From IMG/VR virus record IMGVR_UViG_3300047284_000529, positions 1 through 45,814 of that record: 45,814 nucleotides of DNA; one strand, written 5' to 3'. The notes below the pieces were generated by a model. That model saw only the letters and a list, made by a program, of their open reading frames with translations. It did no database searches and was not told the origin of the DNA. Each line of letters begins with the position of its first letter. The stretch's first letter is position 1. The position numbers were made by a program, and so were the translations under genes. The stretch comes from a virus. Positions 5,674-38,496 of the stretch are shown here, in pieces.

Positions 5674-5681
5674 TATTTATA
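5674..5681 (-). promoter_or_regulatory. T4-type late promoter (TATAAATA)
   Basis: The minus strand reads TATAAATA, an exact match to the T4 late promoter -10 box. It lies 38 bases upstream of the fibre ATG at 5635 and overlaps the stop of the preceding oxygenase gene. T4-like phages recognise this box with the gp55 sigma factor and sliding clamp. The exact match and placement support the call, but such an AT-only octamer also arises by chance in this genome. Confidence 0.7.
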
Positions 5682-15467: not shown

Positions 15468-17309
15468 TTATTCTTCCTCATTTCTAGCATATACTGGATA
15501 TGATCTTTGAACTAAAGTTGCAGTTGCCCCTGAAGAATTGCCAACTAAAGATTCCCCAACAGAGAATAGATGATTTCCATTATATTCTACGGGAGATTTC
15601 AATGTTAATATTGATGTTGTTCTATTAAACGATACAACCTCAGCAGAAACAGTAGAAGTTCCTCCAATGACGGTTTCTCCTATAACATAACTAATAGTTG
15701 AGATATTTCTAATCTTAAATTCAAGTATAGCTTCATACGAATCGCCATCATTTAACTGACCAGCAGATGATACAGATGCTAGTAGTTTAGAGCTACTAGA
15801 ATCAAATATTTTGTCTCCTTGCTGGAATAATGTTGTGCTTTGACCTCCTACCGTCTCTTCAATACCATATAATGATGTTGAAATGCCGCCATCTAAATTA
15901 ATTTTATTTTCATATTCAGTTGTAGCATTAATCAAATCTGCTATACCATCAGGCTGCCCATTTAAGTTAATATCAAGAAATGCACTATTGGGTAGTATTG
16001 TTATAGGGCTTGTAAATAAGAAAATTCTAGAATTTTCTTTTTCTACTACAGTATGTGGTGCAACACCAGTAGCTGATGAATTTGCTGTTCCTCCAGTGAA
16101 TGAAATAACTGCAGATTTTTCTCCAGATCTACCTCCATCAATAAACGCCAATTCATCAACTTCAAATATAATGTATAATGCTCTATTAATTGGATCCCAA
16201 TCATAAACTTTTGCTACTTTATTATTTGAAGATTCAACTTCTCTGATAATTTTATCAGCTACATTAAAATTATAATTTGAGATTCCAGTTTCTGGATCAT
16301 TTGCCAAATCATCAAGTATTACCTTTTGGTCAAATTTAAAGTTGACGCCCCTATCGCATCCAGTAAATTGAGTGGATGTTTTTCCAGTATAACGAATAAT
16401 TTCTCTTCCTAATAAAATTTTACCAGAACCTGGATATGGGTCAGTAGTTTCAACATCAATAAAGTTTTGACTTGGAGAAATATCCTTAGTAATACCTGTT
16501 AAATTATATAAAATAGCATTTAGTGATTGTCTATTTCTGGTTGTTTTTATTAGATTTGTATCTCTAGTAAAAATTACTTGAGGTGGGTTTATAAATCCTC
16601 CACCAGGATTTGTAACGGTAATATCAGTAAGCGAACCAAGATCAATTGATGCTTTAGCTTGCGCACCAGATCCTCCACCACCGATTAATTGGATTAATGG
16701 AGGAGTTTCAAAGAACTCTCCAGCATTAGATATATTGATATCTGTAACTACACCAAATTCGTCAACATTAGCTACACCAGCTGCACCTTGACCACCACCT
16801 CCAGATATTACAATAGTTACATCACCAAGTTCATAGTTTTGCCCAGGATTTTCTAAAGATAAGCCAGTAACTAATCCAGTTATTGGAACTAATTGAACAC
16901 CTGAGCCACCGCCACCTCTAATGTATGCTCTAGCTGAATTAGAGCCAAAATAACCATCTCCATTTTCAAATACTTGAATATAACTTATAGATCCACTTGG
17001 ATTTAATACGGCTCTAGCTTTTACCTTAGTTGCATTTTGAACCAAAGGCTCAACAATAACTTCTAATGGTAAATATCCTTCACCAGGATCTATAACTTCA
17101 ACAGCTTGGATTTTACCATCAGTTTTATTAATAACTGGTCTAAGTATTGCTTCTCTTAAAGGGGTTCCACAGTTTGAAATGGTTAATCGTGGTGGATTAT
17201 CAGGATCATATCCTTCTCCACCATCGATAACCACAATATCCTTAACCCCATATATGCTATTGAATATGGGTTCAATGACTGCACCGCTTCCAGGAACTGT
17301 TCTTGCCAT
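15468..17309 (-). CDS. Glycine-rich beta-repeat virion protein (613 aa)
   Basis: The product is built largely from repeats of the form V.NPG.GY..PP.V.I.GGGGSGA.A.A.I (for example IRGGGGSGVQL, LIGGGGSGAQAKASI). These occupy about residues 20-245. A second half contains DPYPGSGKILLGREIIRYTG, a beta module also present in the giant gene 20431-38496, plus VGGTSTVSAEVVSF and VGNSSGATATLV modules near the C terminus. Around residues 445-460 DINLNGQPDGIADLIN resembles a thrombospondin type-3-like calcium loop. It lies 3 bases after the cupredoxin protein and before the gp8-like gene, so a virion or baseplate-attached role is likely. I recognise no enzyme. An extended beta-solenoid-like fibre is an inference from repeat content. 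Confidence 0.75.
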   Translation of the reverse strand: MARTVPGSGAVIEPIFNSIYGVKDIVVIDGGEGYDPDNPPRLTISNCGTPLREAILRPVINKTDGKIQAVEVIDPGEGYLPLEVIVEPLVQNATKVKARAVLNPSGSISYIQVFENGDGYFGSNSARAYIRGGGGSGVQLVPITGLVTGLSLENPGQNYELGDVTIVISGGGGQGAAGVANVDEFGVVTDINISNAGEFFETPPLIQLIGGGGSGAQAKASIDLGSLTDITVTNPGGGFINPPQVIFTRDTNLIKTTRNRQSLNAILYNLTGITKDISPSQNFIDVETTDPYPGSGKILLGREIIRYTGKTSTQFTGCDRGVNFKFDQKVILDDLANDPETGISNYNFNVADKIIREVESSNNKVAKVYDWDPINRALYIIFEVDELAFIDGGRSGEKSAVISFTGGTANSSATGVAPHTVVEKENSRIFLFTSPITILPNSAFLDINLNGQPDGIADLINATTEYENKINLDGGISTSLYGIEETVGGQSTTLFQQGDKIFDSSSSKLLASVSSAGQLNDGDSYEAILEFKIRNISTISYVIGETVIGGTSTVSAEVVSFNRTTSILTLKSPVEYNGNHLFSVGESLVGNSSGATATLVQRSYPVYARNEEE

Positions 17310-20427: not shown

Positions 20428-20435
20428 TATTTATT
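20428..20435 (-). promoter_or_regulatory. Weak late-promoter-like box (AATAAATA)
   Basis: This octamer is one mismatch from TATAAATA and lies across the stop of the giant gene. It is only ~10 bases from the YHYH-protein ATG at 20418, which leaves almost no leader. It may be a chance AT-rich match. Confidence 0.2.
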
Positions 20436-23400
20436 CGTCATTGAATATTTGAACTGGGCTAAACGCTGCCAACACTGTGGCACCAGTTTGAACCGATAGA
20501 ATTGCAGAATTACTATAAACTGGAATGCAACCAATAGCTGTTATCACAACTCTATATTCGTCTTCATTATCAATTTGTTGTGTTGGTGATGTAGTATAAG
20601 TTGCTTGATTGGCTCCAGGAATGTTATTCCATGTTGTAGTTGCATAATCTTTCTTCTGCCATTGATAGCTAAGAGTAGATGTATTATCTACCGTTGCAAC
20701 GACAGTAAACGATGCAATTTGACCTTGACTTACAGTTAAATTGTGTGGCTGAGATGTGATGTTAATAACACCAAGATCAATAATAATTGGATTTCCATCT
20801 TCATCGATACCTTCTCCAGCTAGTAAATCAAATCCATTATTAATAGGAGCACCAACAGGAGATTCGAAATCATCAGGAACTGTAGTTTCAACAGATACTA
20901 CAGGTAATGAATATCCGATACCAGAAGATTTAACATCAATACGAGAAACACCAACTAAAGCTTTAGCTCTACCATTAAATCCTGTTGATGAGATGATATC
21001 AACTTGTGGTCTTTCTTCATAACCACTTCCAGAAGAAGTAAGAATAACTTCTTCAATACGACCCTTAGTAATTTGAGCTATAGCTAAAGCATTTCTACCT
21101 TTAACTGTTCCCGTATATTCAAATGTAGTCAATGAGTTCGAAGACTCAATAAGTGCTACTGTTCTATTTCCAGTTTCACCTTCAATCTGTAGAAGATCCC
21201 CAGCCTCAACTGGTGGAATAATGTCTGCAGATACAACGTCAGCATCAGAACCAACATATGAGAATGCAACGAAAGTAGATCCAGCTCTAGGAACTTCAGC
21301 AAATATAATTCTAGAACCAACTAACTCAAAGCCAACTCCTGGTTCTTGGAGAACACCATTGACAGAAACAATAATATTATTTTCTGGTCTAATGGTATTA
21401 GATTGAACACCATCAGTTAATGTTAGTGAGTAGAATACACCATTCAACTTTAAGTTGAATGAATTTCTAAGAGAGTCAAAGTCAAATGATATATCATCGA
21501 GCTGCCTTAACTTACCAACATAGAATCCAATGAATTCTGAGTTAGCTGATGGAGGCTCAGTAAATTGAATTTGATCTGAGAATGCAGTAAATGCATTATT
21601 ACCACCAGGAGGTTGTAAAATACCATTTACAAACACCAATAAGTGACCAGCTGGATCTGGGAAGTATGGTTGACCGTTCGCAATCGATAATTTAAATGTT
21701 GTCTGAGAACCATCAAATCCACGGAAATATCTAGAAACTCTTGCCATCAAGTCTTTTGCTGTAGCTACAGCAGCAGACCATCCATTATTACCAACAACAG
21801 TCATGTTGTCATAAAATTCACCTCTTACATCTTGCAGCCAAATTGTGGAATTGTTTCCAAGTTTATCAATTTTTACTACCTTACCATAAGAAATTGCATC
21901 TGTTCTATCAATTCCTGAAATTAGAGAGTAAATTACTGGGAAGTTAGATCCAGCAAATTTACCAACAAAAACTCCAGGTGTTAGAAGATCTTCAATAGTT
22001 GCTTCATCACTTACATCAATAGCAGAATATTGAACATCCGCAATATAAAGATCGTGTATACCTTCTAATGGTCTATAATCATATTTTGTAACTGTTGCTT
22101 TCCAACCAGGATTTTTCTTAACTGCTCCTTGTAGAAGGAATACCTCATCCCCTGGATTATATGTAGCTGCAATACCAGTATCTACTACGTTATTAGAAAT
22201 TGATAATTTAATTATTTCAGTTCCATTAATGTAGTCACCTAGAACTAATTCTGTAGAGCTATTATCATACATTACTAATATTTTTTCAGTTATAGAACCA
22301 TATACAACTTCACTTACATTCCATGATCCATTTACAGTTTCTACATCTAAAGTTAATTTACCACCAACAGTAGATACGATGCTTCCATAAGAAGGCATGT
22401 AATTGGAAATTGTAGCCTCAACCGAATCTTCTTCTTTGAAAATTACATCACCTGCGACAAACTCACCCATGAATGGATTTATCAACATATTATTGCTTAC
22501 AGAAGAAATTGTTGCAGTAGTTCCAGTTTCTAAACCTTCAATAATATTTCCAACTGATATCGTTCCAACAATATCAATCAAATTGATATATGTTGAGCCA
22601 TTGGTTTCATAAACTACCCCTCTATTAGTTGTTGATCCTTGAACAACGACAGTTTCCCCATTTGCAAACCCAAAGTTTTCTGGAACATTGGAAATTACAA
22701 ACTTACTATAAAGTTTTACAATCTTAGCTTTGTTGTAAGTTACAAAAATCAATTCACTATGTGCATCACTAGTAGTTCCGTAAATTACGTCAGCGGGATT
22801 AAATCCACCTGAAATTGGAGTTGGGGTCTTACTTCTATCACCATTGTATGTTGCAACTCTCTCAATACCAGTTCTTCTGGAAATTCTTAATTGCTGAGAT
22901 GCATTGTTTGTATTTCCAATATTGAAAGGTCTATCTTGAGATTTTATTTCAGGCTTAATTGTAAACGAAGATGCAGTTACATTTGTAACATAGAAATAAT
23001 CGTTAGCTACTAACGATGTAATTGATTCACCTAAAGGAATATATTCTAATATATCACCAATTACAAATTTATGAGTTCTATTGATCGTTGATCCAGTGGA
23101 AGCAACGTCGCTAGAAGCAATGAAAGTTACAGAATTTGTAAGAGGTAACTTGCTATATCTCAATGAATAATCATAAAGATTGAATAATGATCTTAATTTA
23201 AATTCTAAAGTTTCAATATCCAGCAATTCCATCGATATTGGATATTTTTCATTAATATCAAAATTATCTGGAAATACCCAAGATGGCTCAAATGTTATTG
23301 GTGATGGGTTTGGAAGTGTTTGATTACATGCACTCAAAGTCAGAGTTTCAATACTATCTAAGTGTGCTAGCAATCTAGTTCTATTGATATTTGCGAATGC

Positions 23401-26400
23401 AATAAAATTGCCCTCACCATCAAACCAACTGTTAATATGTTTGATTGTATTTGCATTACCGCCAGTAACCAAATCATGTCTTATTGACTTAATAATTTCA
23501 TCTGCAAAATCAACGGTTCCAGTATAGGATGGATTATTTAATAGAACTTGGGCATATGACTCTTCTCTGATGTAGCGGTCATTATTATGAATTAGGCGTG
23601 ATGCATTCTTTTCGGTTCTTCCTGCGGGAACCAATGTCTCAATCATAGTATCAAATAAGATACTAATTGCAGATCTTACATTATCGCAAGTGTATTCTTG
23701 ATACTCTGTATTACCAGAATATGGTAACGTCTTTGTGATAGATGTGAGATAGTTTACATTATTCTCTGCATTTTCTACAGTTTCAATTAAAATATTAGAA
23801 AGAGTAAATACTGCACTAATCACATCTGCACAAACTTGACCCCAAGATGGAGCAGATGTGTCATATACAACTGTCACATCTCTCTCTACACTTCCAGATG
23901 AATACTGAACGGGCCAGATAGTTGGAAGAGTAAATGGTATAGTTCCATTAGTAATTGAGATAGGATTATTGATAGTATCCGTAATTACTGACATTAAGCT
24001 AGTAATTGACGATGCTACAGCCTGACAAGTTGGATTTTGGGTATCTAGAGTAGGAACAGGAGAATAGAATGTTTGTGTTATACCATGAGTTCCCTGAACA
24101 CTAATGGTAGTATTTCTCATTACGCTAATAGCCAAATCACGAGCCTTATTGAAAATCCAGATAGATTCTGCCGCTTGTGATGTGATGTGCTGTAAATTAT
24201 TTGAAGAATTTACATACTCATTTGCAGCATAGAATACCCAATTATTTCCACCATACTGAAGATTAAAGACTAATGCCTTTAAGACATCCTTAACATCATC
24301 AACACAATTTTGACTTCCACCAGGAATTACTAATCCTGGATATTGTTGTGTTCCTAAGTATACAGCTTCATTTGCAATAAAATTAATATTCTTTTCAATA
24401 ATTCCTGCTGCATCGAGATGACTATCAGATACTGCATTTCGCATGTAGGTTTCAACAGGCTCATTTTCATTTCCTCTGATGTTGTCTCTACCAAATCCAT
24501 TTCTTATAGTTACTGCAGCAATGTCACGAACTAGCTTAAATACTTGCTTAGTTGCCTCAGCTTCAGATTCAATATATAATAATCCATTATCTTCTGGATC
24601 AATATACATTGATGCTGCTTCATATGTTCTAGAATTTCCACCGAATCTAAGATCGTGGATCATTGCATCTAGAATATCTTCAACATCATCAGTGCAATTA
24701 ACTCTACCACCAGGAACTTCAAAAGTATGATACTTAGTGAAGTTCTGCATGGTCAACACAGCTTCTTCTGCAATAACTTTTTTATTTCTCTCTAGAGCAT
24801 TAGCTGCATCGATGTATAGATTATAATTAGAACGTGATGGATCATAACCTTTAGGATCTACAGTAATTGTTGGATCTCTATAAGGCTGCTTAATAGTATA
24901 TGCTGCTGAATAATAATCATCTTGATATGTAACTGGTGTTCCAGCAGGATATACTTCACCTTGTGCCGATAATAGATTGTTTATTGCCTTCAGAGTTAAG
25001 AATTTAGTAAATTCTAATGCATCTGACATAGCAAGCAATTCATCCTCAACCAATACAACATTTTCATCTTGATCAATATAGAAATCAATTGCATTATTGG
25101 TTGCCGAGTTTCCACCAGTTATTATATCTGTAATTATAGCTGGTAAGATATATTCTCTAATATCTCTAGCACATTTACCAGGGAGACCTGGCATATTTAA
25201 TTTATCTTCATTGACGCTTCCTACAGTTACTGTATAGCGATCTTCTAACCAACCAACAACTTCATCAGCAATGAAGTCTCTATTGAGCCAAATTAAATCA
25301 CCAGCATCTCTAAATCTATGCCCAGTTGGAGCTAGATGATCAACAATAATATCTCCAAGAGCAATTATTTCATCAAGTATAGTTTGTGATATGCTGGTAG
25401 TTAAAATTCCAGGAACTCTAAGAATATTTGTATACTCTCCTTCCAGTGGATCCGTGTCTGCTTTTTCTAAAAGCTCAACACATAATTTTACAGTTTCTCT
25501 CCAAGCATAAACAGATTGTAATAATTCATTTGAAATATATTCGACAGAATTATTTCTATTAATATAGCCTTTAGCTGCAATTATGCTATTGAAATTACCA
25601 CCATACTTAATATCGGATATTATGGCAGGAAGAATAAATTCCTTTGTATCACGAATGCAATAATCCAATCCACTTCCATATGAAGGATATGTGAATCCAG
25701 GATATCTATTTCTTAATCTACCAACGACTTCTTCTGCGATAAAATCTATATTCTTTTCGATAACAGAAGCTGCAATTCTATGGTTATCTCTGGATAAATC
25801 AACATCTTCAATTAGGATTATACTATTTTGTGTATCAATTGATTTGATAGTAGTAGATGATGCAGTTCTTCCACTATATTGAGCATATACTTCATGCTCA
25901 GCAAGAATGAATGGCTTGTTTGCAGCTAAACCAAATGATAATGCATCATCATCATTATCATATCCAGTATTTGGTGTGAAGTTTGCATTGTAATCCGCAA
26001 TACCTTTCTTGATTTGTATGTTACTCATGTAACCATACAATCCATTTCCACCATTAAATGCAGCACCAATAACAATTTGTTTATTTGAATAATTATTAGT
26101 ATCTGTATATGTTGTAGCTGCTACAGTTCCATTATGATAGAGTTTTAATACCCCAGAGCTTCTTACTAAAGCAATATGCTTCCAAGTATTAATAGTAACT
26201 GCAGAAGATAACTGAATTAATAGAATACCAGAATAGTATACTTTTAAATCTGCATTATCTAATATAATGCGAAGGGCAGTATCACTAGCACCACTAGTTC
26301 TAGTATCAATTAGAGTTTGAGTTAAATTATTTCTAGAAGTTCTATACCAGAATTCAATAGTAAAATCAGAAGATGCGCCAAATGCTACTCTATCACTTGA

Positions 26401-29400
26401 TGGATAACTTAAATATTGAGCGCCAGCAGAAAATGCAAATGAACCAGTCGCTGATGGTGCAATATTTTTTGAAGTTGTGACACCAACATTAGTAATTAAA
26501 CTATTAGTGATGTATTCATCCTGTGTATATGAACCAGAAATATTTTTAGTGTAAATCCACTTGAAAGCAGTATTCACACCAATCACCGAAGCTGTAGCTC
26601 CAGAAGTAATACCTTTTATAGTATCTCCAAATGCAAATAATCCTGCAGATTTATTTGCATATGAAATCTTATTGCTTCTTATAGTTTCACCTTGTAAGAA
26701 ATTACCAGTCAATGAACCATACTTTACCTTAGTATTTTTAATGGTTTCTTTCTCATCAAATGCACCAGTTGCTCCAGTATAGATAACCTCAATATTTCTA
26801 GCCTCTTCAAAATCTAAGAAATCATCGTTAATTAATACTTCAGAATCATATAGTTTTGTTGGATTGATTACTGTTTTTGAGATATCATCGAGAATAATAT
26901 TTGGGTTTGTGGTAGAAACTAATCTTTGGAAGATTAATCCAAAGAATGATGATCCAGAACTAATTTCTACAGTATCAACTACACCATCCGTAACTGGATC
27001 TCTATATGGTGCAATAAATGTAACTTTAGCTGCAATTTTAGAACTTAGTGAATAAATGATATCATTTAATTTGATATTAAATTTACCAGATTCGAATTCT
27101 GCAGTTCCAGATGTTCTACTAATAGCAATTTCATTAGTAATTACACCATCATCCAGATTGGATTCTTCTACAATAGCAATATCGCCCTTAGTATTTGTTA
27201 TTGTTTCCTTAGTTTCTAGAATTGTTTTACTTGTTACTGGTGTTACCGATACTATATTTGCTTGGAATCCATATGCAGTTGCTAATAGAATTTCATTAGT
27301 TTGGAAATTGCCTTGAATTTCTACAACATCAATAGTAGTAGTTCCACTGTCAATGACAGTAGCTATAGATTCAGTAGTCAAGCCACTAACTTTAGCACCC
27401 AATTCTGGGAAAATGCCACTAATATTATCTAATTCAATTCTGTATATTTGAAGTTGATTGAATCTAGCAGTTCTGTATACAACTTTTGATGGGGGCTTAG
27501 GTGGTTCAGTGAAAATAATATTTGCACCATCAGTTACGAATGCTTGACCTGGAGCCTGAATAATACCATTCAATGTAATCATTATCTGATTAGCATTTGC
27601 AATTACTTGCTCACCCTCAACATAGATTGGGAATGAAGTTCTAGCTCCATCGAAGTCTAAACTAATATCATCAATTTTTTTGACAATTGAAGTCAGAATT
27701 TCCTCTGAAGATGTAAGTCTCTTCTTTCTGAAAAGAACTTCAGTGTTATTATATGTTGTATAGATTGGCTGCGCTGCAGCAAATGAAGTTATCTGATTCG
27801 AATTTGCATAGTTTGTAATATTAACTTGTTTTACTGCATCAGTAATTACTTTTCTACCAGAAATATCTTTACCACCTGAAATTTCTAACTGACCAAACAG
27901 CTTAAATCCAACGGGGTGATTATTTTCGAGAACGGTATTTTTCCAGTTGTTAATTGGAATACTTGATTTAATGATATACGAGAAGTTCTGATAGAAGAAC
28001 GAATCTTGAATTTTTTGAACAATTTCAGATGGCTTTCCAATATCATCGATAAACTTACCTGGAGTAGTGGTAATTGAATCGATATTCAACACACCTCTAG
28101 CATTGCTTAAGTTGTCAATAACACCAGATGCTCTAGAAATAATACCAGTTACCTTTTCACCTTCTTTCCAATCTCCCGTATAATTTTCAATCTTTAAGAT
28201 CTTAGGACCAATTTGCCAGCCACTATTCTTCGAAACATATCCAAATGCTGAAGCTGTTTCTACATTGTCACCTTGATATACCCTTTCACCTTCTAAGAAT
28301 CTAGAAGTTTCTACAATAGCTTCAGCTTTACCACCAAACACTTCTGTTAAGATTACCTGTCTTCCTGAACCTTGAGTTAAGAAAGTAATTGCGTTTCCAC
28401 TTAATGCATCAGCTAAAGTTAATGCAATTTTCAATTGGTCAGATTCTAATGAATTTTCATCACCAGAAATTGCATAGTATACCTGACCAGCAATAAGTGC
28501 AGTCAAACCAGCAGATGATGGCTGAGGTAAGATTCCAATTTCAGAACCAATATTTTCTGCTCTCAATTGAACCTCAGATCCAGTTGTAATACCATGAGGA
28601 ACGTTAAACTGAAGATAACCTAAGTCTACGTTAACAACATAGTTAAACTCAGATTTCAATGTAACTGTAGGCTCAGAAGAGTATCCAGATCCTGGATTTT
28701 TAATTAAAATTTCAGATAGTCTGTTATTTTTAACAATTGCTTCTGCTTCTGCTCCAGATCCACCACCACCTTCGATTACTACTACTGGAGCTGAACTATA
28801 ACCAGAACCTGGATCTATAATTTTAATTTGTGATAGAATTGAAGTATTGAATAATTGTAGGTTGATTGGGAATGTAATTTCTGGTTTTAATGTATAATCA
28901 TGTGAATATCCAAAGCCAAATTCATTATTCTTTAATTTCTTAATCTTACCGATATTCTTACCTGTTAAGAATACTGATGCACCACTTCCCTCATCGGGAA
29001 TAACTACATTCAATTCTGCACCAGAACCACTTAAACTAGGCCCTAAAATACCAGGAATGCCGTCGATATCGATAGATGCAAACGTATATCCCTTTCCAGG
29101 GTTAGTTACAAGAGCTTCAGTTATAACACCTGTGTCTAAAACAGGATCATTCGTAACTGTAATTTTTGCGAGTGCTCCCTCACCATCTCCAAGAATTGGA
29201 ACTTCATAGTATACTCCTGGAGCATATTCAGATCCACCACTTACAATAACTACCTTTTCAATTTGTCTAAATGATGCAATATCAGAGACGATAGGTAATT
29301 TTTGATAGAATCCACCACCATTAATTAACTTGATTGAATTGATAGGTCCAATAGCTCTTGGTGAAGTAGTAGAATATTTGGTAATCGGATTTCCATTTGA

Positions 29401-32400
29401 ATCATCTTGAACTATTGCGCTGCTAAATTCAGGTTCGTTTTCTAGTAAGAATTTGAACGAGAATACAGAAGGAACTTCGGTAATTCTAAATGTTCCTGCA
29501 TATGGTGTATCAATAACGTCGATAAACGAATTTGCACCAATAGGAGAGTTTTCTTCTGTTCTAGATGGGTCAAAATAATAAGAAATATTAGTAACTTCAC
29601 CTGCGACAATAAATCTTACAAATGGTTCATTTCCAGAAGAGCTAACTCCAGGAATACCACTTCTAATGATATTATTGAATGAATATTCGAGTTTATATTG
29701 GTTATCTTGAGAGAATGATAGATAGAATCCAAAATTTGAAGGGTCGCTTAGGTCAAAGACATACTGATGCCCTCTAACAAAGAGAAGTTTAGGATGCTTG
29801 GTGTAGAAGTTTACACTACTAATTACACCCTGAACATAATTGGGATCCTGAGATGCTATAGATCTTAGTTTAAACGTGAAATCTCTACTAGAAAATACCT
29901 CTTCAACAAAGAATGATCCGTTAAATTGTGCGGTTGAGAATCCTTCTACAAATAGAATATCATTCTTCTCATAGTTATGACGACTATTGGTTGAAATATA
30001 AAGAAGATCTGTTCTATCTGAATCAATAACCTTTACATCCTTTTCTAAAAGAACACGAACAGAAATACTCTTTACTTTATCTAATCCACTTACTCGTATT
30101 ACCTTTTCAGTATCATCATTTGGCGCAAAATCTACAGTAATAGTATTTCCAATACTTACAATATCATTAGGTATAAAATTAGAACCAGAATATACTGTTA
30201 ATATTTGAACAATATAAACTCCTTCAGAATATGGCTTAAATCTTGTATAATCTGCATAAGTTGTTGATTGACCTTCAGGATAAGTGAAGTCATTTAAATC
30301 AATATCGAAATAATTTGCAGTTTCAACAAATGCCCAAGTCACAACACCATCCGTTACTGTTCCTGTTGTATGCGTTGGTGGAATAGTTCCTCCAGTTCCT
30401 GCACTTTGCGCCTCATAAATTTTACCATCATTAAATACACGATTTCCAACAGAATATACAGCAGAAGATGACCACAATTCTTCAGTTCTAGCAACAGTAA
30501 ACGTTGCTGACATCTCATTGACGTTATTTGCCGAAGATCTTAAGTATTTTGTAGTGCTAACTGTATCAAAAGTTGATCCTGCAGGGAATACTTTACCTAC
30601 ACGATAAGTAACTTGATTTTCATCATTGACCGTTGGAGCATCAACAATTGTTCCAAATACTGATACTACTTTTTGACCATTAATTATAGAATACTGTTCT
30701 AGTATTGAACCTTTTGTGAATAATGCATTTTGATTTAGAGTTAATTCTCTAACATTATCAATTTTAGATACAGTAGAATCTTTAATATAGAACTTCTCAA
30801 TAACTTTTGGTGTAAGCTTTAACTTTTTACCTAGAGGTGATGGGATAGTTGCAGTTTTACTATCAAAAATTTCAAATTCACTTGAAAGCGAATATATTCC
30901 AGGAACTGCTGTAGAAACAACATCATTATAGTCTAAGCTTTGTAATCCACCAGCACCAAGTTCATATGAAGCTATGTTTGCACTAAAATTAGTTACAGAT
31001 AAAGCATTAGTGTCATTTTCAATAATTGCAGTATCAATATCTAAATCTGAATTAGTTAATACCCAAGTTCCAACTTTAGTATGCTGTCTATCAAATTTGC
31101 TAATAATTACATTACTCTTTTGAGTTGTTAATACAAAAGAACTTGTTCTTGGTGTGAACGCAACGGATTCATTATACATTGCATATGGGGCAACAACTAA
31201 GTCATCTGCTCTACCAATCCAAGAATTTGCAGATGTTGGCGTTGCAGGGCCAAAGAATCTAACATCATTTACATTTACACTATTTGTAGTTGTATACTCT
31301 ATAACTTTTGAACCATTAAAGTATACTCTATAGACATAATTGCCCAAAGATGGATTTGTTTTTTCTAATGTAAATAAATTGAAATTGTTGACACCAATAG
31401 TGTTCCAATACGATGTTGAAGTGGAACTGACCAATACAGTATTAACGTCTGCAGAATTTGCAGAAATTAGCTGAATTTTTCCATAATTTGCGCTAGTTGT
31501 GTCGCCATCAACAACAACTTTGTATTTAATTACATCAGATACTCCAACACTTATTACCTCTGGCTTATGATTTATTGCATGACGAGCAGATTCCATCTGG
31601 AAGAATCCTTCGACCGTCCATTCTTTGATTTCTGCTGTATTAATATCTGCAAGAGAAAGTGAATTCTGTGCAGTAGTTTTTACTGACTTTCCACCAAACT
31701 TAAAGAATGATGAATCATATTCTACATTAGAAGAATTGAACCATGTTGTAACCCCTAGACTTCTCTTTGATGAATCCGTAGGAGTAGCAATATTTGCAGT
31801 ATCATTAAACTCATAGTATGCCAGTTCTTTAGATATTTCTTTTTCTGATGTGATAATAATATCACCAGAGTTATCTACAGAATGAGATTTTGCAATTAAT
31901 CCTGCAAAATTTGGTGTTTTAATTGTAGATTGATTTAGAATTGTTCCATCATACTTAATTGTAGTAACTGCAATTTGCTTATCTACAACTCCATAATTTA
32001 TAGAAGTTACTAATGCAATATTACCAAAGATATCTGTTTTGATATTTGCATGTTCAATTGAGTTGTACGCAAGAGAAGGAGTAAACGACTTACTCCAAAT
32101 TAAAGTATTTGGATTTTCTGGATTAAATTTAAATACTACTACTTTTTCACGCTTTTGTGTGCTGCTATTGATAGCATTAAATGTGACATAATAATCCCCT
32201 TCTTCATCTTTTACTATTCTTGGATTATTTACGACAGTTGCATTAAATGCAACACTATTCATGTATTCAACTTCAATATTAGCTCCATCATAGAATATTT
32301 TTCCTAATAGTAAGGTTCCAAGTGTAACTGAAGTTCCAACGAATAAGAGTTCATTATCGGTCAACCAAATAATATCATTTAAACGCTCAGAACCAGATGT

Positions 32401-35400
32401 TGAAGCAATTTTTCTCTTTTCTTTAACATCACCATCATTGTTCATCTGGATGATCCACATATCATCGGGATTTAATGAATTAGTATCAGTATATCCTCCG
32501 ATATAGACATTTTTATCCTGATCCAGAACAACACTAGTTACATAGTCTCTTCTGGTTAATCCAGAAATACCAGCAATTTCTTTTTTCCAAACTATAGATC
32601 CAATTGGATTGTTAGCAAAATCTACTGTTGATTCATATTTTGCTACAAATACATCAGGATTATAGTTTAAATTAGTTACGTTTGGATAGGTTTCACCTAC
32701 AACATAAATCGTATCATTTTCTCCTGGATTAGTATCTACATATAATTTTTTAAAGAAGCACTTTTTGTTGCCAGATTCTGGAACAGCAGGTATTAATGTT
32801 CTCCACCAAATTAATTTTCCTTGATCGTCATATTTTGCTAGATAGCTAACAACATTACCATTAGTTTCATTAATGTTTCCACAAACATATAACTCACGGT
32901 TTAATGTGACTGTAGAATCAGCAACTTCAAATTTACTTCCATTGCTTTCTTTTAAGTCAGAGAAGAAATAACGAGCTTTTTTGTATACCTGAGGATGGGT
33001 AACTCTTATTTGTGGTGGATTTGTAGTGCTATAATTATTACCAGAATTGATAATATCAACAGTTCTAATATTACCAGTAGATTCTAAATTAATTTTAAAA
33101 TCTGCATCTTGACCTTGAAAAGTTATTAATTCATATACTGGTGGGATGTCATCAATATATCCAACACCTTCCTGGGTCACTTCAATTGTTTCGATGCCAG
33201 ATACAACTTTAACTTTGAATCTCTTGTCTGTTGCATCAAGCAATGGATATGTATCAACAATAACTTCATCACCAACTCTTAACTCATGCTCTCCTTCAGT
33301 TGTGATCGTTCCATATGGTTGATCATTTACTAAAGATTTGTTATACGAAACTACTTTATTACCAACAATAGACTCGATTTCTGCAGAAGCACCGAAACCT
33401 TGAGTATCTGTATTGTCGAAGAATAAAATATCACCAACTTGATATGATACCCCTGGATTTTCAATAACAAATCCATCAATTTTTGCATCTTCAAATTTAG
33501 TTGTAGTTTCTACTTCAATATCAACTTGAGATGCCAAGCTAACGGCTGGGAAATAATCAAAGATTTGTAACGTTTGCTCTTCGATTAATACTACAATATC
33601 ATCTTCTTCTACTGGAGAAATTACACCATCTCTGTTCAAATCTTCTAATTCTAGAATTATTGCATCTCCAGTTTCCAGTGTTAACCCATCTTGTGCTCTA
33701 TTTGGCTGTCTTTCAATATCAATGTCAACATTTTCATATGGATCTCTATATCTAACAACACCAGTTGGGATGTTTTCTTGGATTGCACTTTGGCTGAAAT
33801 TCCAATCATCTGGTAGTGAATTGTAGTTAGGACCTAAAATATATGGGAATACTGGTAGACCTGCTTCAGAAGCATCAATAGTAATGAAGTATGCATAAGT
33901 TCCTTCTGGATATTCTGGAGTTTTACAGAATCTTCCATTATATTGGTCTAAATCACCATATTGGAATCTAAATTCATAGTCATTAATAAATGTTCCAGCT
34001 GGATACTCACTTAATGAAGGACCATCAATTCTGGTTGGTTGTGGATTAGTATCAGGATCATATATTAAATTCTCCTTTATTGCATAAGAAGAATTCATCC
34101 TCTTTATGCCTTGAGTTGGTTCAGTAGGATTTAAATATGCATATGGGCCATATATTGGATTTCCATCAAATGCCCATCCGATAATTGGAGAATGCTTATA
34201 GTTACTAGATACTTCTTTGAATCTATTGGTTTGTTGATCTAAGAATACGTTATCACCAACAACATATCTCAGTTCCTTAGGATCGGAAATATGTGCATAT
34301 TCCCCGCCGTATTGATTATTATAACCAGAGAATACATATCCTCTTGCCTTATCATACTTACCATTTAATAAGTATTCTTGGTTTTTAATCCAGCTAAAAA
34401 TTTCAGCCTCAAAAGTAGCAGACTGACCAACAGCTTCTAACCTAATAGTAGTGTTCCCTTGAGTATATCCAATACCCTTATTAGTAATTTGAACACTGAT
34501 TACCTTTCCTTTATCTTCACCTACTGTTCCAATAATTGCCTTAGCCTGAGCACCAAAACCATCACCATTGATAATAACATTTGGTGGGCTAGTGTAACCT
34601 TGACCAGAATTGATAATAGCAATTGATACAATTCTGCCATTGATAATTACAGGTTGAGCTAGAGCATCTTCACCAGATGAAAGAATAATTGATGGTGGAG
34701 AAGTATATCCTTGACCTTCACTTAAAACTTCAATTGACTGAACGGGACCTCTTACTTGAGCAGTAACTTCAGCACCACTTCCACCACCACCAGTGATTGA
34801 AACTGTAGGTTGTGAAGTATATCCAGATCCAGGATTTTCTACTAATACTCTGCTAACTCTACCATTAGTAATTACTGCAGTAGCAGTAGCTCCAGCTCCA
34901 CCACCACCAACAATTGAGATAAGAGGGGAAGATGTATATCCAGAACCACCATTAACAACATCAAAGCTATACAGACTGCCGTTAATAGTAACACGAGCCG
35001 TAGCTCCAGATCCGCCACCACCTACAATACTTAGATTTGGAACAGTTCCTGCATCATAACCTTGACCTGGGTTAACAATAGAAACTGAGGTGATACCACC
35101 AAATAAGACCTTTTCATTTGCCTTATAAGACCAGACTGAAACGCCATTAATTAATGATGCAATTGGTCCTGGTAATATCTCTCTTCTATTAGATACTGTA
35201 AGAGGTTTTCTTGGGAATCTATATAATTTTCTTTGGTTACCAGGGATTAATGCCGACCCAACAAAAGGACCTACTTTATAATTAGGCAATCCAGAAGCTG
35301 CAATATAAACATACTCAGCATTGAAAAATGCATTTTGTATATTTGTTGTATAATCTGAGATGGTATTGTTTATTGATAAAACATCTGACTTACCACGATT

Positions 35401-38400
35401 TAAGTCAACAGAAACTAAAATATTTCCCTGAGGGGCAATGTTAGATGGTTGTGGGATTTGATAGCTAAAAGTAAATTCGTCAAGTCTTGAAGTAACAAAG
35501 AACGTTCCATTGTAAATTACAGGATTTGCACCATATATTGTTACACTATCTCCAACCAATAGACCATGAGGATTTGAACATACAACCGTTGCAGTTTGTT
35601 GATTTGTTCCAACATCAATACTACCAGGAGAGATGCTTACTACTCTAACTAATTTCTTAACATTATACAGCCAAGTTTGTAACCTTTCATCAGTCGCAGA
35701 TGATCCTAATTTTGATACAGTTAGTTTATCTCCAGGGAGATAATATGAACCAGTATCATCCAAAACTGTGGTATTTGCTTCAGCAATACCTAGGATACGC
35801 ATTTTAACTTCTGATGAAGTTCCTCTATTAACATAAACAAAAATATCAGAATAGATAGGAGTTCCTGGATCCCAATCTTCAACCAATCCATTCTCGGATC
35901 TGGTGCATTCAATAAATTGGTTTAATGTTTTTTCTTTATACTGAACTTCCTCTTCGTTATCTATTAAGATAGTTCCGTTTCTAGCTGGCCAGCCGATAGT
36001 AGAATCGACTGTAATTATTTGATCATCTACACTTAATGGCTCAACTAATGTAGTTTTATATGGAATGACAAAATTACCAACTAATGTCTCTTCTGAGATT
36101 GCTAATTCATAAATTGTAGAATTTTCTTGATTGATAGCAATTACGTTTTCTACCAATGCCGAAGCATCTTTTACATTCTGATCTACTTCACTATCATATT
36201 GAATCAATTGCGATTCTTTGATGTTTACGGGATCACCAGAAATTACTTCAACGCGAATGATGGTATCGATAGACCAAGTTGCAGCAGATGGTGAGATGAT
36301 TTCATCTCTAGGATATGCAACATCGGCATTCTCACCAAATAAGATTTTGAATATGAATTGAGTTGAAAGCTTGGTGCCCTTTGAAGTATAATATTGACGG
36401 ATATTCTTAATAATCTCTGCAGGATTAATAGAACTAATGTCAATATTTGAATTTGGAATATATTGATTTAAGAATTTCTTTAAAAGATGCTTTACAAATA
36501 ATGAGTCTAAATTAGTTACTGTTGATCCTTGAGGATGTGAGCTTTGGGTTAAGTCAGACTCTTTTTTGAATACCTGATGACCATTTAGGTCAAAGCTGGT
36601 TACACCACTTACTCCTCTCTTACATCCAACTAAAGCAGAAGGTTCGTAATTTTGACCATTTTCAATAATCTTAAAACCAGTAACCTCATTGAAACCAACT
36701 TCACATGAAGCCTTTGCTGCTGATGGAGATGCGATGAAAATGGAAGGTGGTTCAGTTTCACTATAACCACTACCAAAATCTAATACATTAATATCAGTAA
36801 TGCGACCATTAAAAATAGTAGCTGCAGCTTTAGCACCAGTTCCACCAATAGGATTGCCATTGGTATCTTTTCTGTTATCTACAATGTAAATTGATGGAAC
36901 ATCTTCGTATCCCTCTCCACCAGTTAATAACTCAATATCAGTAACGTTGCCATCAACAACTCTTACATCTAAAACCTGAGCCCCAACAGGATCAATAATA
37001 GATACTCTAGGAATAGAGGTATATCCTCTTCCACGATTGATTATATTGATAGAAACTACAGTTCCATCTGCACTAATTACAGCTTCAGCTAAAGCTCTTA
37101 TGCCACCTTCTGGTGCAGGATCAATATAAACTGCTGGTGGATTTTTATATCCAGAACCACCAGCAATTACTTGAATAGATCCAATATTAACTCTACCTAA
37201 AGAATCAATGGTCGGCTTTGATATTTTTGCACCACCAGGATTTCTAAAAGTTATAGCAGGGATAAAATCATATCCACTACCACTATCTTCTACATTTAGC
37301 GTAGAAATTTTTCCAGTAACATCATCAACTTCTAGTGAAATTCTAGCAGCAGTTCCATTAGGATTTGTTGGAGGTTCAACTACAACATATGGTGGGTTAT
37401 ATGAGTTATAACCAAAACCACCATCAATAAGTGCTACTGATTTTACTCCAGATACTAAAGAAGTTGCTGTCGCACCAAAACCACCGTTATTTGTTCTGGA
37501 AATTGTTACCTTAGGCGTAAAATTCAGATCATATCCAGAGCCACCATTCTTTACTATTAGTTTACCTAATCTGTGATCGGAAGTAATTTCTGCAATTGCT
37601 TCTGCGCCAGATCCAACAATTGGTGTTGCAAATTCTATAGTTCTGATATGAACTGTTTCTGTATTGTATACATTATTTTTGAAAATGATTAAATTCTCAA
37701 AAATGCTAAAATCTATGTAAGGTCTTTGTAATACACCATTTCTAATAACAATAGCAGAAATTTCTGAAATAATGCTATATGGTTGGGAATTTAACTTAGT
37801 AGAATAAAATTTAGTATTATTCTGAGTATTATTGTCTAATGTTCTAATAGTGGAATCAGAGAAACCAATTAAGTATATAATTTTGGTAGAACCTTCTGAG
37901 TCTGTTCCTACTCTTTCTCTAGGTGCAACTGCAAATCTAATTTTATCTCCTTCGAGGAAATAATCAACATTAGGAATTAATGTTTCACCATAGATTGTAA
38001 CAATAAGGTGCTCTTCACTTACTGGAGTTACTGGATTACCTAAGAGTCTAAGATCAAATAAATTTTTTGTTCCATCTAGTTGTAGGAAAATATTCTCTAG
38101 TTCTTGCTGTCTCTTTAAATATTCAGCAGAGCTAATTCCTGGCGTAATTACAACTTCAGGACCTTTTGAGATTCTATCATAATAGATAACTTCATCATCA
38201 ATTATGACAGTTCCATCAAATTCTAAAAATCCACTAACATTTTCTACTTGAATAACATCATCATAAACACCAACATCATTTAAAGTTGTTGTTGTTGCAT
38301 TTAGTGTTTTGAAGTCATAATTTTCGACATCAAGTAGGCTCAATAGGTTATTGAGTATATAAACGGGCTTACCTACTTTCTCTTGTGATTTGTAGTAATT

Positions 38401-38496
38401 TTTTAATAATTCTACAAACTGTCTATCTTCCTCTCTAATAAACTGAGGAATTTGTGACTCAACTCTATCGGAAATCTTAACACTATTTGTTAGCAT
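20431..38496 (-). CDS. Giant multidomain virion protein (6021 aa) at the gp7 position
   Basis: A single 18-kb frame encodes ~650 kDa. The N terminus (IPQFIREEDRQFVELLKNYY, then VYILNNLLSLLDVENYDF) looks like the start of large cyanophage baseplate proteins, and the slot after gp6 is that of gp7. In order I see: glycine-rich GxGY/GGGSGA repeats (~290-620 and ~1130-1350); a YHYH domain (~1390-1555, with FDGNPIYGPYAY and GDLDQYNGRFCKTPEYPEGT); an EF-hand-like loop (DLNRDGVISPVE, ~1618-1629); a propeller-like region of seven blade motifs (~1863-2479) with a LamG-like insert (~2220-2452); VNG-x2-Q-x-PG modules (~3610 and ~5585-5770); a second LamG-like domain (~4010-4180); five helical repeats (~4235-5058); and a C-terminal Ig-like domain (~5912-6005). 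It is probably an outer-baseplate fibre or adhesin. The gp7 link is positional, and I see no direct T4 gp7 similarity. Confidence 0.85.
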   Translation of the reverse strand: MLTNSVKISDRVESQIPQFIREEDRQFVELLKNYYKSQEKVGKPVYILNNLLSLLDVENYDFKTLNATTTTLNDVGVYDDVIQVENVSGFLEFDGTVIIDDEVIYYDRISKGPEVVITPGISSAEYLKRQQELENIFLQLDGTKNLFDLRLLGNPVTPVSEEHLIVTIYGETLIPNVDYFLEGDKIRFAVAPRERVGTDSEGSTKIIYLIGFSDSTIRTLDNNTQNNTKFYSTKLNSQPYSIISEISAIVIRNGVLQRPYIDFSIFENLIIFKNNVYNTETVHIRTIEFATPIVGSGAEAIAEITSDHRLGKLIVKNGGSGYDLNFTPKVTISRTNNGGFGATATSLVSGVKSVALIDGGFGYNSYNPPYVVVEPPTNPNGTAARISLEVDDVTGKISTLNVEDSGSGYDFIPAITFRNPGGAKISKPTIDSLGRVNIGSIQVIAGGSGYKNPPAVYIDPAPEGGIRALAEAVISADGTVVSINIINRGRGYTSIPRVSIIDPVGAQVLDVRVVDGNVTDIELLTGGEGYEDVPSIYIVDNRKDTNGNPIGGTGAKAAATIFNGRITDINVLDFGSGYSETEPPSIFIASPSAAKASCEVGFNEVTGFKIIENGQNYEPSALVGCKRGVSGVTSFDLNGHQVFKKESDLTQSSHPQGSTVTNLDSLFVKHLLKKFLNQYIPNSNIDISSINPAEIIKNIRQYYTSKGTKLSTQFIFKILFGENADVAYPRDEIISPSAATWSIDTIIRVEVISGDPVNIKESQLIQYDSEVDQNVKDASALVENVIAINQENSTIYELAISEETLVGNFVIPYKTTLVEPLSVDDQIITVDSTIGWPARNGTILIDNEEEVQYKEKTLNQFIECTRSENGLVEDWDPGTPIYSDIFVYVNRGTSSEVKMRILGIAEANTTVLDDTGSYYLPGDKLTVSKLGSSATDERLQTWLYNVKKLVRVVSISPGSIDVGTNQQTATVVCSNPHGLLVGDSVTIYGANPVIYNGTFFVTSRLDEFTFSYQIPQPSNIAPQGNILVSVDLNRGKSDVLSINNTISDYTTNIQNAFFNAEYVYIAASGLPNYKVGPFVGSALIPGNQRKLYRFPRKPLTVSNRREILPGPIASLINGVSVWSYKANEKVLFGGITSVSIVNPGQGYDAGTVPNLSIVGGGGSGATARVTINGSLYSFDVVNGGSGYTSSPLISIVGGGGAGATATAVITNGRVSRVLVENPGSGYTSQPTVSITGGGGSGAEVTAQVRGPVQSIEVLSEGQGYTSPPSIILSSGEDALAQPVIINGRIVSIAIINSGQGYTSPPNVIINGDGFGAQAKAIIGTVGEDKGKVISVQITNKGIGYTQGNTTIRLEAVGQSATFEAEIFSWIKNQEYLLNGKYDKARGYVFSGYNNQYGGEYAHISDPKELRYVVGDNVFLDQQTNRFKEVSSNYKHSPIIGWAFDGNPIYGPYAYLNPTEPTQGIKRMNSSYAIKENLIYDPDTNPQPTRIDGPSLSEYPAGTFINDYEFRFQYGDLDQYNGRFCKTPEYPEGTYAYFITIDASEAGLPVFPYILGPNYNSLPDDWNFSQSAIQENIPTGVVRYRDPYENVDIDIERQPNRAQDGLTLETGDAIILELEDLNRDGVISPVEEDDIVVLIEEQTLQIFDYFPAVSLASQVDIEVETTTKFEDAKIDGFVIENPGVSYQVGDILFFDNTDTQGFGASAEIESIVGNKVVSYNKSLVNDQPYGTITTEGEHELRVGDEVIVDTYPLLDATDKRFKVKVVSGIETIEVTQEGVGYIDDIPPVYELITFQGQDADFKINLESTGNIRTVDIINSGNNYSTTNPPQIRVTHPQVYKKARYFFSDLKESNGSKFEVADSTVTLNRELYVCGNINETNGNVVSYLAKYDDQGKLIWWRTLIPAVPESGNKKCFFKKLYVDTNPGENDTIYVVGETYPNVTNLNYNPDVFVAKYESTVDFANNPIGSIVWKKEIAGISGLTRRDYVTSVVLDQDKNVYIGGYTDTNSLNPDDMWIIQMNNDGDVKEKRKIASTSGSERLNDIIWLTDNELLFVGTSVTLGTLLLGKIFYDGANIEVEYMNSVAFNATVVNNPRIVKDEEGDYYVTFNAINSSTQKREKVVVFKFNPENPNTLIWSKSFTPSLAYNSIEHANIKTDIFGNIALVTSINYGVVDKQIAVTTIKYDGTILNQSTIKTPNFAGLIAKSHSVDNSGDIIITSEKEISKELAYYEFNDTANIATPTDSSKRSLGVTTWFNSSNVEYDSSFFKFGGKSVKTTAQNSLSLADINTAEIKEWTVEGFFQMESARHAINHKPEVISVGVSDVIKYKVVVDGDTTSANYGKIQLISANSADVNTVLVSSTSTSYWNTIGVNNFNLFTLEKTNPSLGNYVYRVYFNGSKVIEYTTTNSVNVNDVRFFGPATPTSANSWIGRADDLVVAPYAMYNESVAFTPRTSSFVLTTQKSNVIISKFDRQHTKVGTWVLTNSDLDIDTAIIENDTNALSVTNFSANIASYELGAGGLQSLDYNDVVSTAVPGIYSLSSEFEIFDSKTATIPSPLGKKLKLTPKVIEKFYIKDSTVSKIDNVRELTLNQNALFTKGSILEQYSIINGQKVVSVFGTIVDAPTVNDENQVTYRVGKVFPAGSTFDTVSTTKYLRSSANNVNEMSATFTVARTEELWSSSAVYSVGNRVFNDGKIYEAQSAGTGGTIPPTHTTGTVTDGVVTWAFVETANYFDIDLNDFTYPEGQSTTYADYTRFKPYSEGVYIVQILTVYSGSNFIPNDIVSIGNTITVDFAPNDDTEKVIRVSGLDKVKSISVRVLLEKDVKVIDSDRTDLLYISTNSRHNYEKNDILFVEGFSTAQFNGSFFVEEVFSSRDFTFKLRSIASQDPNYVQGVISSVNFYTKHPKLLFVRGHQYVFDLSDPSNFGFYLSFSQDNQYKLEYSFNNIIRSGIPGVSSSGNEPFVRFIVAGEVTNISYYFDPSRTEENSPIGANSFIDVIDTPYAGTFRITEVPSVFSFKFLLENEPEFSSAIVQDDSNGNPITKYSTTSPRAIGPINSIKLINGGGFYQKLPIVSDIASFRQIEKVVIVSGGSEYAPGVYYEVPILGDGEGALAKITVTNDPVLDTGVITEALVTNPGKGYTFASIDIDGIPGILGPSLSGSGAELNVVIPDEGSGASVFLTGKNIGKIKKLKNNEFGFGYSHDYTLKPEITFPINLQLFNTSILSQIKIIDPGSGYSSAPVVVIEGGGGSGAEAEAIVKNNRLSEILIKNPGSGYSSEPTVTLKSEFNYVVNVDLGYLQFNVPHGITTGSEVQLRAENIGSEIGILPQPSSAGLTALIAGQVYYAISGDENSLESDQLKIALTLADALSGNAITFLTQGSGRQVILTEVFGGKAEAIVETSRFLEGERVYQGDNVETASAFGYVSKNSGWQIGPKILKIENYTGDWKEGEKVTGIISRASGVIDNLSNARGVLNIDSITTTPGKFIDDIGKPSEIVQKIQDSFFYQNFSYIIKSSIPINNWKNTVLENNHPVGFKLFGQLEISGGKDISGRKVITDAVKQVNITNYANSNQITSFAAAQPIYTTYNNTEVLFRKKRLTSSEEILTSIVKKIDDISLDFDGARTSFPIYVEGEQVIANANQIMITLNGIIQAPGQAFVTDGANIIFTEPPKPPSKVVYRTARFNQLQIYRIELDNISGIFPELGAKVSGLTTESIATVIDSGTTTIDVVEIQGNFQTNEILLATAYGFQANIVSVTPVTSKTILETKETITNTKGDIAIVEESNLDDGVITNEIAISRTSGTAEFESGKFNIKLNDIIYSLSSKIAAKVTFIAPYRDPVTDGVVDTVEISSGSSFFGLIFQRLVSTTNPNIILDDISKTVINPTKLYDSEVLINDDFLDFEEARNIEVIYTGATGAFDEKETIKNTKVKYGSLTGNFLQGETIRSNKISYANKSAGLFAFGDTIKGITSGATASVIGVNTAFKWIYTKNISGSYTQDEYITNSLITNVGVTTSKNIAPSATGSFAFSAGAQYLSYPSSDRVAFGASSDFTIEFWYRTSRNNLTQTLIDTRTSGASDTALRIILDNADLKVYYSGILLIQLSSAVTINTWKHIALVRSSGVLKLYHNGTVAATTYTDTNNYSNKQIVIGAAFNGGNGLYGYMSNIQIKKGIADYNANFTPNTGYDNDDDALSFGLAANKPFILAEHEVYAQYSGRTASSTTIKSIDTQNSIILIEDVDLSRDNHRIAASVIEKNIDFIAEEVVGRLRNRYPGFTYPSYGSGLDYCIRDTKEFILPAIISDIKYGGNFNSIIAAKGYINRNNSVEYISNELLQSVYAWRETVKLCVELLEKADTDPLEGEYTNILRVPGILTTSISQTILDEIIALGDIIVDHLAPTGHRFRDAGDLIWLNRDFIADEVVGWLEDRYTVTVGSVNEDKLNMPGLPGKCARDIREYILPAIITDIITGGNSATNNAIDFYIDQDENVVLVEDELLAMSDALEFTKFLTLKAINNLLSAQGEVYPAGTPVTYQDDYYSAAYTIKQPYRDPTITVDPKGYDPSRSNYNLYIDAANALERNKKVIAEEAVLTMQNFTKYHTFEVPGGRVNCTDDVEDILDAMIHDLRFGGNSRTYEAASMYIDPEDNGLLYIESEAEATKQVFKLVRDIAAVTIRNGFGRDNIRGNENEPVETYMRNAVSDSHLDAAGIIEKNINFIANEAVYLGTQQYPGLVIPGGSQNCVDDVKDVLKALVFNLQYGGNNWVFYAANEYVNSSNNLQHITSQAAESIWIFNKARDLAISVMRNTTISVQGTHGITQTFYSPVPTLDTQNPTCQAVASSITSLMSVITDTINNPISITNGTIPFTLPTIWPVQYSSGSVERDVTVVYDTSAPSWGQVCADVISAVFTLSNILIETVENAENNVNYLTSITKTLPYSGNTEYQEYTCDNVRSAISILFDTMIETLVPAGRTEKNASRLIHNNDRYIREESYAQVLLNNPSYTGTVDFADEIIKSIRHDLVTGGNANTIKHINSWFDGEGNFIAFANINRTRLLAHLDSIETLTLSACNQTLPNPSPITFEPSWVFPDNFDINEKYPISMELLDIETLEFKLRSLFNLYDYSLRYSKLPLTNSVTFIASSDVASTGSTINRTHKFVIGDILEYIPLGESITSLVANDYFYVTNVTASSFTIKPEIKSQDRPFNIGNTNNASQQLRISRRTGIERVATYNGDRSKTPTPISGGFNPADVIYGTTSDAHSELIFVTYNKAKIVKLYSKFVISNVPENFGFANGETVVVQGSTTNRGVVYETNGSTYINLIDIVGTISVGNIIEGLETGTTATISSVSNNMLINPFMGEFVAGDVIFKEEDSVEATISNYMPSYGSIVSTVGGKLTLDVETVNGSWNVSEVVYGSITEKILVMYDNSSTELVLGDYINGTEIIKLSISNNVVDTGIAATYNPGDEVFLLQGAVKKNPGWKATVTKYDYRPLEGIHDLYIADVQYSAIDVSDEATIEDLLTPGVFVGKFAGSNFPVIYSLISGIDRTDAISYGKVVKIDKLGNNSTIWLQDVRGEFYDNMTVVGNNGWSAAVATAKDLMARVSRYFRGFDGSQTTFKLSIANGQPYFPDPAGHLLVFVNGILQPPGGNNAFTAFSDQIQFTEPPSANSEFIGFYVGKLRQLDDISFDFDSLRNSFNLKLNGVFYSLTLTDGVQSNTIRPENNIIVSVNGVLQEPGVGFELVGSRIIFAEVPRAGSTFVAFSYVGSDADVVSADIIPPVEAGDLLQIEGETGNRTVALIESSNSLTTFEYTGTVKGRNALAIAQITKGRIEEVILTSSGSGYEERPQVDIISSTGFNGRAKALVGVSRIDVKSSGIGYSLPVVSVETTVPDDFESPVGAPINNGFDLLAGEGIDEDGNPIIIDLGVINITSQPHNLTVSQGQIASFTVVATVDNTSTLSYQWQKKDYATTTWNNIPGANQATYTTSPTQQIDNEDEYRVVITAIGCIPVYSNSAILSVQTGATVLAAFSPVQIFNDE
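23320..25790 (-). repeat. Five degenerate helical repeats in the giant protein
   Basis: Five units of ~105-125 residues share a pattern of I..N..FIA.E.V, a cysteine-aspartate or aspartate step (YCIRDTKEF, KCARDIREY, NCTDDVEDIL, NCVDDVKDVL, DFADEIIKSI) and a GGN motif (SDIKYGGN, TDIITGGN, HDLRFGGN, FNLQYGGN, HDLVTGGN). A conserved helix follows. GGN positions are near 25605, 25115, 24645, 24255 and 23462. The larger spacing before unit five holds an inserted segment. The rest of the giant protein is mainly beta, so this predicted helical block stands out. I do not recognise the family. Confidence 0.8.
34440..35100 (-). repeat. Tandem GGGGSGA / GxGYTSPP beta repeats in the giant protein
   Basis: Seven or so units of about 35 residues follow the pattern V.NPG.GYTS.P.VSI.GGGGSGA.A.A.I.NG.V. 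A similar, more diverged array lies at about 36600-37640. The same unit occurs in the neighbouring 613-residue protein, in the gp8-like protein and in the right-edge protein. It looks like a building block for an extended beta structure. Confidence 0.8.

Follow-up and report, generated by a model that had tools for sequence, protein, structure and literature searches.

Phycobiliproteins are known as antenna proteins, together with a few globin-like relatives. Their bilin-attachment cysteine is Cys84, and their X-Y helices serve alpha-beta assembly in phycobilisomes. It has also long been noted that cyanophage adsorption depends on light. The bilin cysteine of many phycobiliproteins is carried by a CXRD motif, and bilin-binding globins can load bilin without a lyase (PMC10151467). 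In smURFP, an evolved allophycocyanin, C52 and D55 attach and hold biliverdin (PMC10338489), and the position on which T-type lyases act in beta-phycocyanin is Cys153 (PMC10452541). For phage cpeT and the cyanophage bilin synthesis genes, the role has been described as unresolved (PMC3037559).

The window, by which we mean the whole 45.8-kb virus record that was analysed, carries on its minus strand part of a gene cluster for a T4-type baseplate. Members of this cluster encode a PAAR-like protein, gp25, gp6, a giant protein of 6021 aa, a YHYH protein, a gp9/10-like protein and gp8. The giant protein, which belongs to phrog_701 in PHROGs (virion structural protein), contains an array of five repeat units, and its features are as follows (residue k of the giant protein starts at window position 38496-3(k-1)).

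20431..38496, minus strand: giant 6021-aa virion protein (phrog_701), at the position of T4 gene 7 (gp7), between the gp6 gene and the gp8 and gp9/10 genes
26011..26421, minus strand: Laminin_G_3 (concanavalin-like lectin) domain, residues 4026-4162, directly N-terminal to the array, E 9.7e-14
25477..25773, minus strand: unit 1, residues 4242-4340; CIRD motif; Cys84-like C4280 at 25657-25659
24976..25308, minus strand: unit 2, residues 4397-4507; CARD motif; C4442 at 25171-25173
24499..24810, minus strand: unit 3, residues 4563-4666; CTDD motif; C4601 at 24694-24696
24112..24414, minus strand: unit 4, residues 4695-4795; PGG...CVDD; C4731 at 24304-24306; source of the PF00502 match
23947..24039, minus strand: Cys-helix module following unit 4 (PTCQAVASSITSL), with C4824; corresponds to the Cys153 region and last helix of beta-phycobiliproteins
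23761..23841, minus strand: second Cys-helix module (QVCADVISAVFTL), C4889
23611..23697, minus strand: third Cys-helix module (YTCDNVRSAISIL), C4937; immediately before unit 5
23320..23607, minus strand: unit 5, residues 4964-5059; Asn and GGN kept, Cys and Asp at +3 lost

Several other features of the window were noted. In residues about 1140-1340 of the giant protein (window 34480-35080, minus strand), short beta repeats with the pattern GSGYTSxPxVxIxGGGGxGA are numerous, and the neighbouring proteins (13891-15426 and 15468-17309) contain motifs resembling them. The PAAR-like protein near gp25 (42001-42534, minus strand) matched phrog_281 (E 6.7e-25), with its Pfam match falling below the cut-off (E 0.0064); judged by sequence, it is a candidate tail-spike tip. 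Annotations conflict at 5677-6195 (minus strand), where Pfam gives a 2OG-Fe(II) oxygenase (E 1.1e-9) and PHROGs a DNA endonuclease V. (A protein named LamG-like in Syn30 also contains a unit match.)

The original prediction described a five-copy helical repeat at 23320-25790. Using a profile of 84 units that came from other phages and excluded the window and contigs nearly identical to it, we found exactly five units in the giant protein, with E-values of 1.6e-28, 8e-25, 6.1e-31, 7.5e-36 and 2.1e-14 for units 1 to 5, the last of these over residues 4964-5052, and so recovered every copy of the predicted repeat at 2.1e-14 or better. Searching 100 shuffled versions of the giant protein with the unit profile gave zero reported matches. 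When the units of the window were compared with each other by BLASTP, 9 of the 10 pairs aligned at E <= 0.01 (24-40% identity), and because these alignments cover 37-151 residues the similarity extends beyond the GGN motif. Confinement of the similarity to GGN is thus ruled out. The predicted positions were right and a cysteine is indeed present in four of the five units (C4280, C4442, C4601 and C4731), with unit 5 having none, but the unit had been cut too short; units 1 and 4, each taken with the segment that follows, form domains about 150 residues long. In a set of 80 non-redundant units, taken from the window, from viral contigs and from public phages, an Asn was present throughout (100%), and the Cys (91%), an Asp at +3 (94%), an Ile, a second Asp, a Gly-Gly-Asn and a Tyr were conserved. 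(In other phages, pieces matching only about the first 27-50 unit positions lie near complete units, for example at residues 1985-2019 of an ORF of L005, and also in L018, L024 and others. Their sequences suggest that these may be half-units or, alternatively, a repeated first helix pair.)

The repeat had been thought to belong to no known family, a claim that was overturned by a strong match of the array to Pfam PF00502 (Phycobilisome protein), at 29 bits against a cut-off of 22.2; single units alone were mostly below that cut-off. PF00502 was found at E <= 0.01 in 20 of 27 cyanophage genomes (above the cut-off in 6 of the 27) and, among 14 control genomes, only in Synechococcus elongatus. 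When a profile of 36 phage units was compared with all PDB sequences, the best 60 matches were all phycobiliproteins or their derivatives (best E 2.1e-5). Moreover, profile-profile comparison with 26 cyanobacterial phycobiliprotein-family sequences gave a probability of 97.4% and an E-value of 4.6e-11 over the whole unit. The reversed profile gave an E-value of 0.13 and 20 column-shuffled profiles gave values of 0.02-0.75, which rules out a chance profile match. In both the profile-sequence matches to the PDB and the profile-profile alignment, the unit Cys fell on Cys84 and the Asp at +3 on Asp87.

An AF2 model of unit 4, made without templates from an exclusively viral alignment, had a pLDDT of 84 and a pTM of 0.77. 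The best 50 structural matches of this model were phycobiliproteins or related bilin-protein designs, with a Z of 12-13 and an rmsd of 2.0-3.4 Å over about 105 residues, and Foldseek E-values were about 0.01. Note that a Z of 12-13 alone is at a level where helical bundles can mislead; we accept membership of the superfamily despite this modest score because the whole list is one family and because the sequence evidence is independent. A tandem model of units 1 and 2 (pTM 0.83) provides firmer structural support than the model of unit 4. In the tandem model, unit 1 and the segment following it matched residues 35-184 of phycoerythrin beta with a Z of 16.4 over 141 residues, which argues that the true domain is about 150 residues long and has no X-Y hairpin. 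Indeed, the structural match of the predicted structures began at phycobiliprotein residue 31-38 in nearly all cases. Because the N-terminal X-Y helices are absent, we do not class the array domains as light-harvesting phycobilisome subunits. The matches to phycobiliproteins in PDB sequence and in structure also rule out a new fold or solenoid, so that, of the new solenoid or helical-bundle repeat that had been proposed, the helical repeat survives but its novelty as a family does not. On the combined weight of sequence comparisons and models, each unit is almost certainly a phycobiliprotein-family domain, related to phycobiliproteins by common descent and without the N-terminal X-Y helices.

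We examined the positions of the pigment site in 179 non-redundant units, in which the Cys was kept in 90% and an Asp of the pigment-holding type at +3 in 92%. Loss of the Cys went with loss of the Asp at +3 (Fisher 7e-15) and of Tyr67 (1e-14), p-values that overstate the number of independent losses because the Cys-less units form about six groups, two of them large. Loss of the Cys was not coupled to loss of the fold residues N9, G55, G56 and N57. The Arg86 of CXRD was kept in 35% of units, with Asp equally common at this position, and in the window it is found in units 1 and 2 only. A second cysteine position lies beyond the unit itself: a Cys-x-x-Val helix motif was found downstream of 131 of 350 units, compared to 1.5 in shuffles, and profile alignment matched this motif to Cys153 and to the final helix of beta subunits. 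In the window no Cys153-like residue was found after unit 1 or unit 2, unlike unit 4. (The two Cys-helix modules at 23611-23841, minus strand, between units 4 and 5, have no full unit in front of them and are perhaps remnants of lost domains.)

At E 1e-5 the array query matched 361 public phage records, 360 of which are named cyanophages or Synechococcus or Prochlorococcus phages, the remaining one being named Marine phage. The best matches were Kyanoviridae, with Synechococcus phage S-SZBM1 at the top (49% identity), and it is from these matches that the window virus's own host is presumed. Querying viral contigs with the whole array returned only three near-identical contigs; more distant relatives among viral contigs were gathered with single-sequence queries. 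Units were present in 27 of 30 cyanophage genomes (as a single copy in S-SKS1) and were not found in the other three, P-SSM2, S-SSM7 and S-SM2. When the unit profile was run against 59 cyanobacterial genomes, matches were obtained in seven, with E-values from 4e-7 to 9e-4, and the matching ORFs were 163-187 aa long; since this is ordinary phycobiliprotein length, cyanobacterial genomes were rejected as a source of phage-like units. With respect to the place of the units in the virion, S-E7 carries units in a protein annotated T4-GC 969, and the S-SM1 member of T4-GC 969 has been detected by mass spectrometry in purified virions (PMC3037559). Gene order suggests that the array sits on the outer baseplate or fibre network.

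CpeT-family genes were found in 22 of the 30 cyanophage genomes with the Pfam model, and a phage CpeT profile added four, one of them weak (S-RIM14, E 0.03). CpeT was thus present in 26 of the 27 unit-bearing genomes, and all 26 genomes with CpeT have units. Neither the Pfam model nor the phage CpeT profile found CpeT in S-SKS1, which has units, and it was not found in the unit-less P-SSM2, S-SSM7 and S-SM2 either. The co-occurrence has a Fisher p of 0.001 with the weak S-RIM14 counted and 0.014 with Pfam alone, values that are uncorrected for the kinship of these related genomes. In six of the six genomes that have a full-length cpeT (S-PM2, S-RSM4, ACG-2014e, S-RIM32, S-RIM44 and Syn1), this gene lies upstream of a unit-bearing tail gene at a distance of about 0.4 to a few kb, a synteny that again rests on related genomes; the shorter CpeT versions, found in other phages, are not adjacent to unit genes. 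(In S-RIM44 and S-RIM32, cpeT and the unit gene have a 2OG-Fe(II) oxygenase gene between them.) Bilin reductases were found in 8 of 27 genomes, including both of the unit-less ones in that set, and a link with the units, which we had considered, is not supported by this presence pattern (Fisher p 0.08, in the opposite direction). Because bilin reductases do not follow the units, many phages would depend on bilins of the host.

We think it probable that the array consists of phycobiliprotein domains that bind bilin, or did so recently, and that have been built into the virion. Covalent attachment of bilin to at least some of the units, as suggested by the alignments, has in our estimate a slightly better than even chance, and since the pigment-attachment residues are mostly kept the virion may carry a light-absorbing pigment. 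The main rival is that only the structure of the fold is used. Captured from a host, the fold would provide the tail with a helical building block or a contact surface, without bilin, and its Cys and Asp would be kept for packing, helix capping or a disulfide. This rival, which we regard as possible but doubtful, accounts well for the conservation of N9 and GGN even in Cys-less units, for the absence of the X-Y helices from the predicted structures and for the occurrence of units without phage bilin reductases. It accounts less well for the roughly 90% retention of the Cys and of the Asp at +3 across a highly diverse set of units, for the tendency of these two residues to go together while the fold residues remain, for the second Cys at the Cys153 position and for the association of a cpeT lyase gene with the units.

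Cross-linking of domains through disulfides, or binding of metal, by cysteines in an extracellular tail was among the suggestions of the original prediction. The cysteine does remain functionally interesting, but because it aligns with the bilin-attachment Cys84 we have demoted cross-linking, which now appears very unlikely. Although the 831-residue array holds 9 of the giant protein's 17 cysteines (p 1.5e-4), as might be expected of such a site, a unit usually has a single conserved Cys at a fixed place with a conserved Asp at +3, which is exactly the arrangement of the bilin site; the unit contains no further conserved Cys or His (80 non-redundant units); and seven of the nine array cysteines are at Cys84-like (four) or Cys153-like (three) places. 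Least probable of all, in our opinion, is that the domains bind phycobilisome linkers or lyases of the host inside the infected cell, mimicking or capturing the antenna. Restriction of the family to cyanophages in the phage records searched, and its kinship with host antenna proteins, would fit such a role, but the domains are located in tail and baseplate proteins and the interaction helices X-Y are missing from the predicted structures. Moreover, the units are kept in phages of Prochlorococcus, an organism without phycobilisomes (PMC2984593), and 17 of 21 units in these phages keep the Cys.

If the units do bind bilin, the giant baseplate/tail protein of this marine T4-like cyanophage would contain a chain of bilin-binding globin-fold domains that lack the X-Y hairpin. 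In the infected cell a linear tetrapyrrole of host or phage origin would become attached to the unit cysteines, helped by the CpeT-type lyase of the phage or by a host lyase, and virions would then carry bilins on the tail. As a hypothesis only, the tail pigment could act at the cell surface, for example in light-dependent adsorption, or could stabilise the fibre network. If it were a light sensor controlling adsorption, a role we consider unlikely, the phage lyase (and in some phages also ho1, pebS or pcyA) would serve the virion rather than the antenna of the host. A lack of adsorption in the dark has been reported for P-HM2, in contrast to the podovirus P-SSP7 (PMC7112961), and P-HM2, the one phage of this pair whose unit content is known here, has units. 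The failure of unit-bearing P-HM2 to adsorb in the dark fits a light sensor; host photosynthesis offers an ordinary alternative explanation for the same behaviour.

The phycobiliprotein fold is already known, and its occurrence in virion proteins of cyanophages appears to be unreported, in that we found no earlier report of it in the searchable literature (most subscription journals lie outside this literature). Tandem phycobiliprotein domains are present, with their pigment cysteines retained, in tail proteins of most sampled marine T4-like cyanophages; phage CpeT gains a possible substrate inside the phage itself, and the units are a testable molecular candidate for light-dependent cyanophage adsorption. 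In addition, a large unannotated part of cyanophage virion proteins receives a family name.

Comparison with known systems places the array as follows. The virion structural proteins phrog_701 and phrog_18802 represent the same giant protein families as the protein of the window and have the array in common with it, and are annotated as virion structural protein only, with kinship to phycobiliproteins unstated there. The phage domains share with phycocyanin, phycoerythrin and allophycocyanin the fold over residues 34-149 (unit 4) or 35-184 (unit 1 and its segment), Cys84, Asp87 and the Gly-Gly turn, and in many cases Cys153. They differ in having only about 10-20% identity in structural alignment, in lacking the X-Y helices, in being fused in tandem within a giant virion protein and in the frequent replacement of Arg86. 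BBAGs (bilin biosynthesis-associated globins, PMC10151467), which we set beside the units by description, are non-antenna phycobiliprotein paralogs that bind bilins, some of them with CXRD and without a lyase. Unlike the phage domains, BBAGs are small bacterial proteins and not parts of virions, and their genes lie near haem oxygenase, FDBR reductase, V4R and Fe-S genes, whereas the window holds structural genes. The small allophycocyanin-derived domain of smURFP (PDB 7uqa; PMC10338489) is among the structural matches of unit 4. smURFP is laboratory-evolved, needs to form a homodimer and binds biliverdin without a lyase, and the +3 spacing of its C52 and D55 is equal to that of the phage Cys and Asp.
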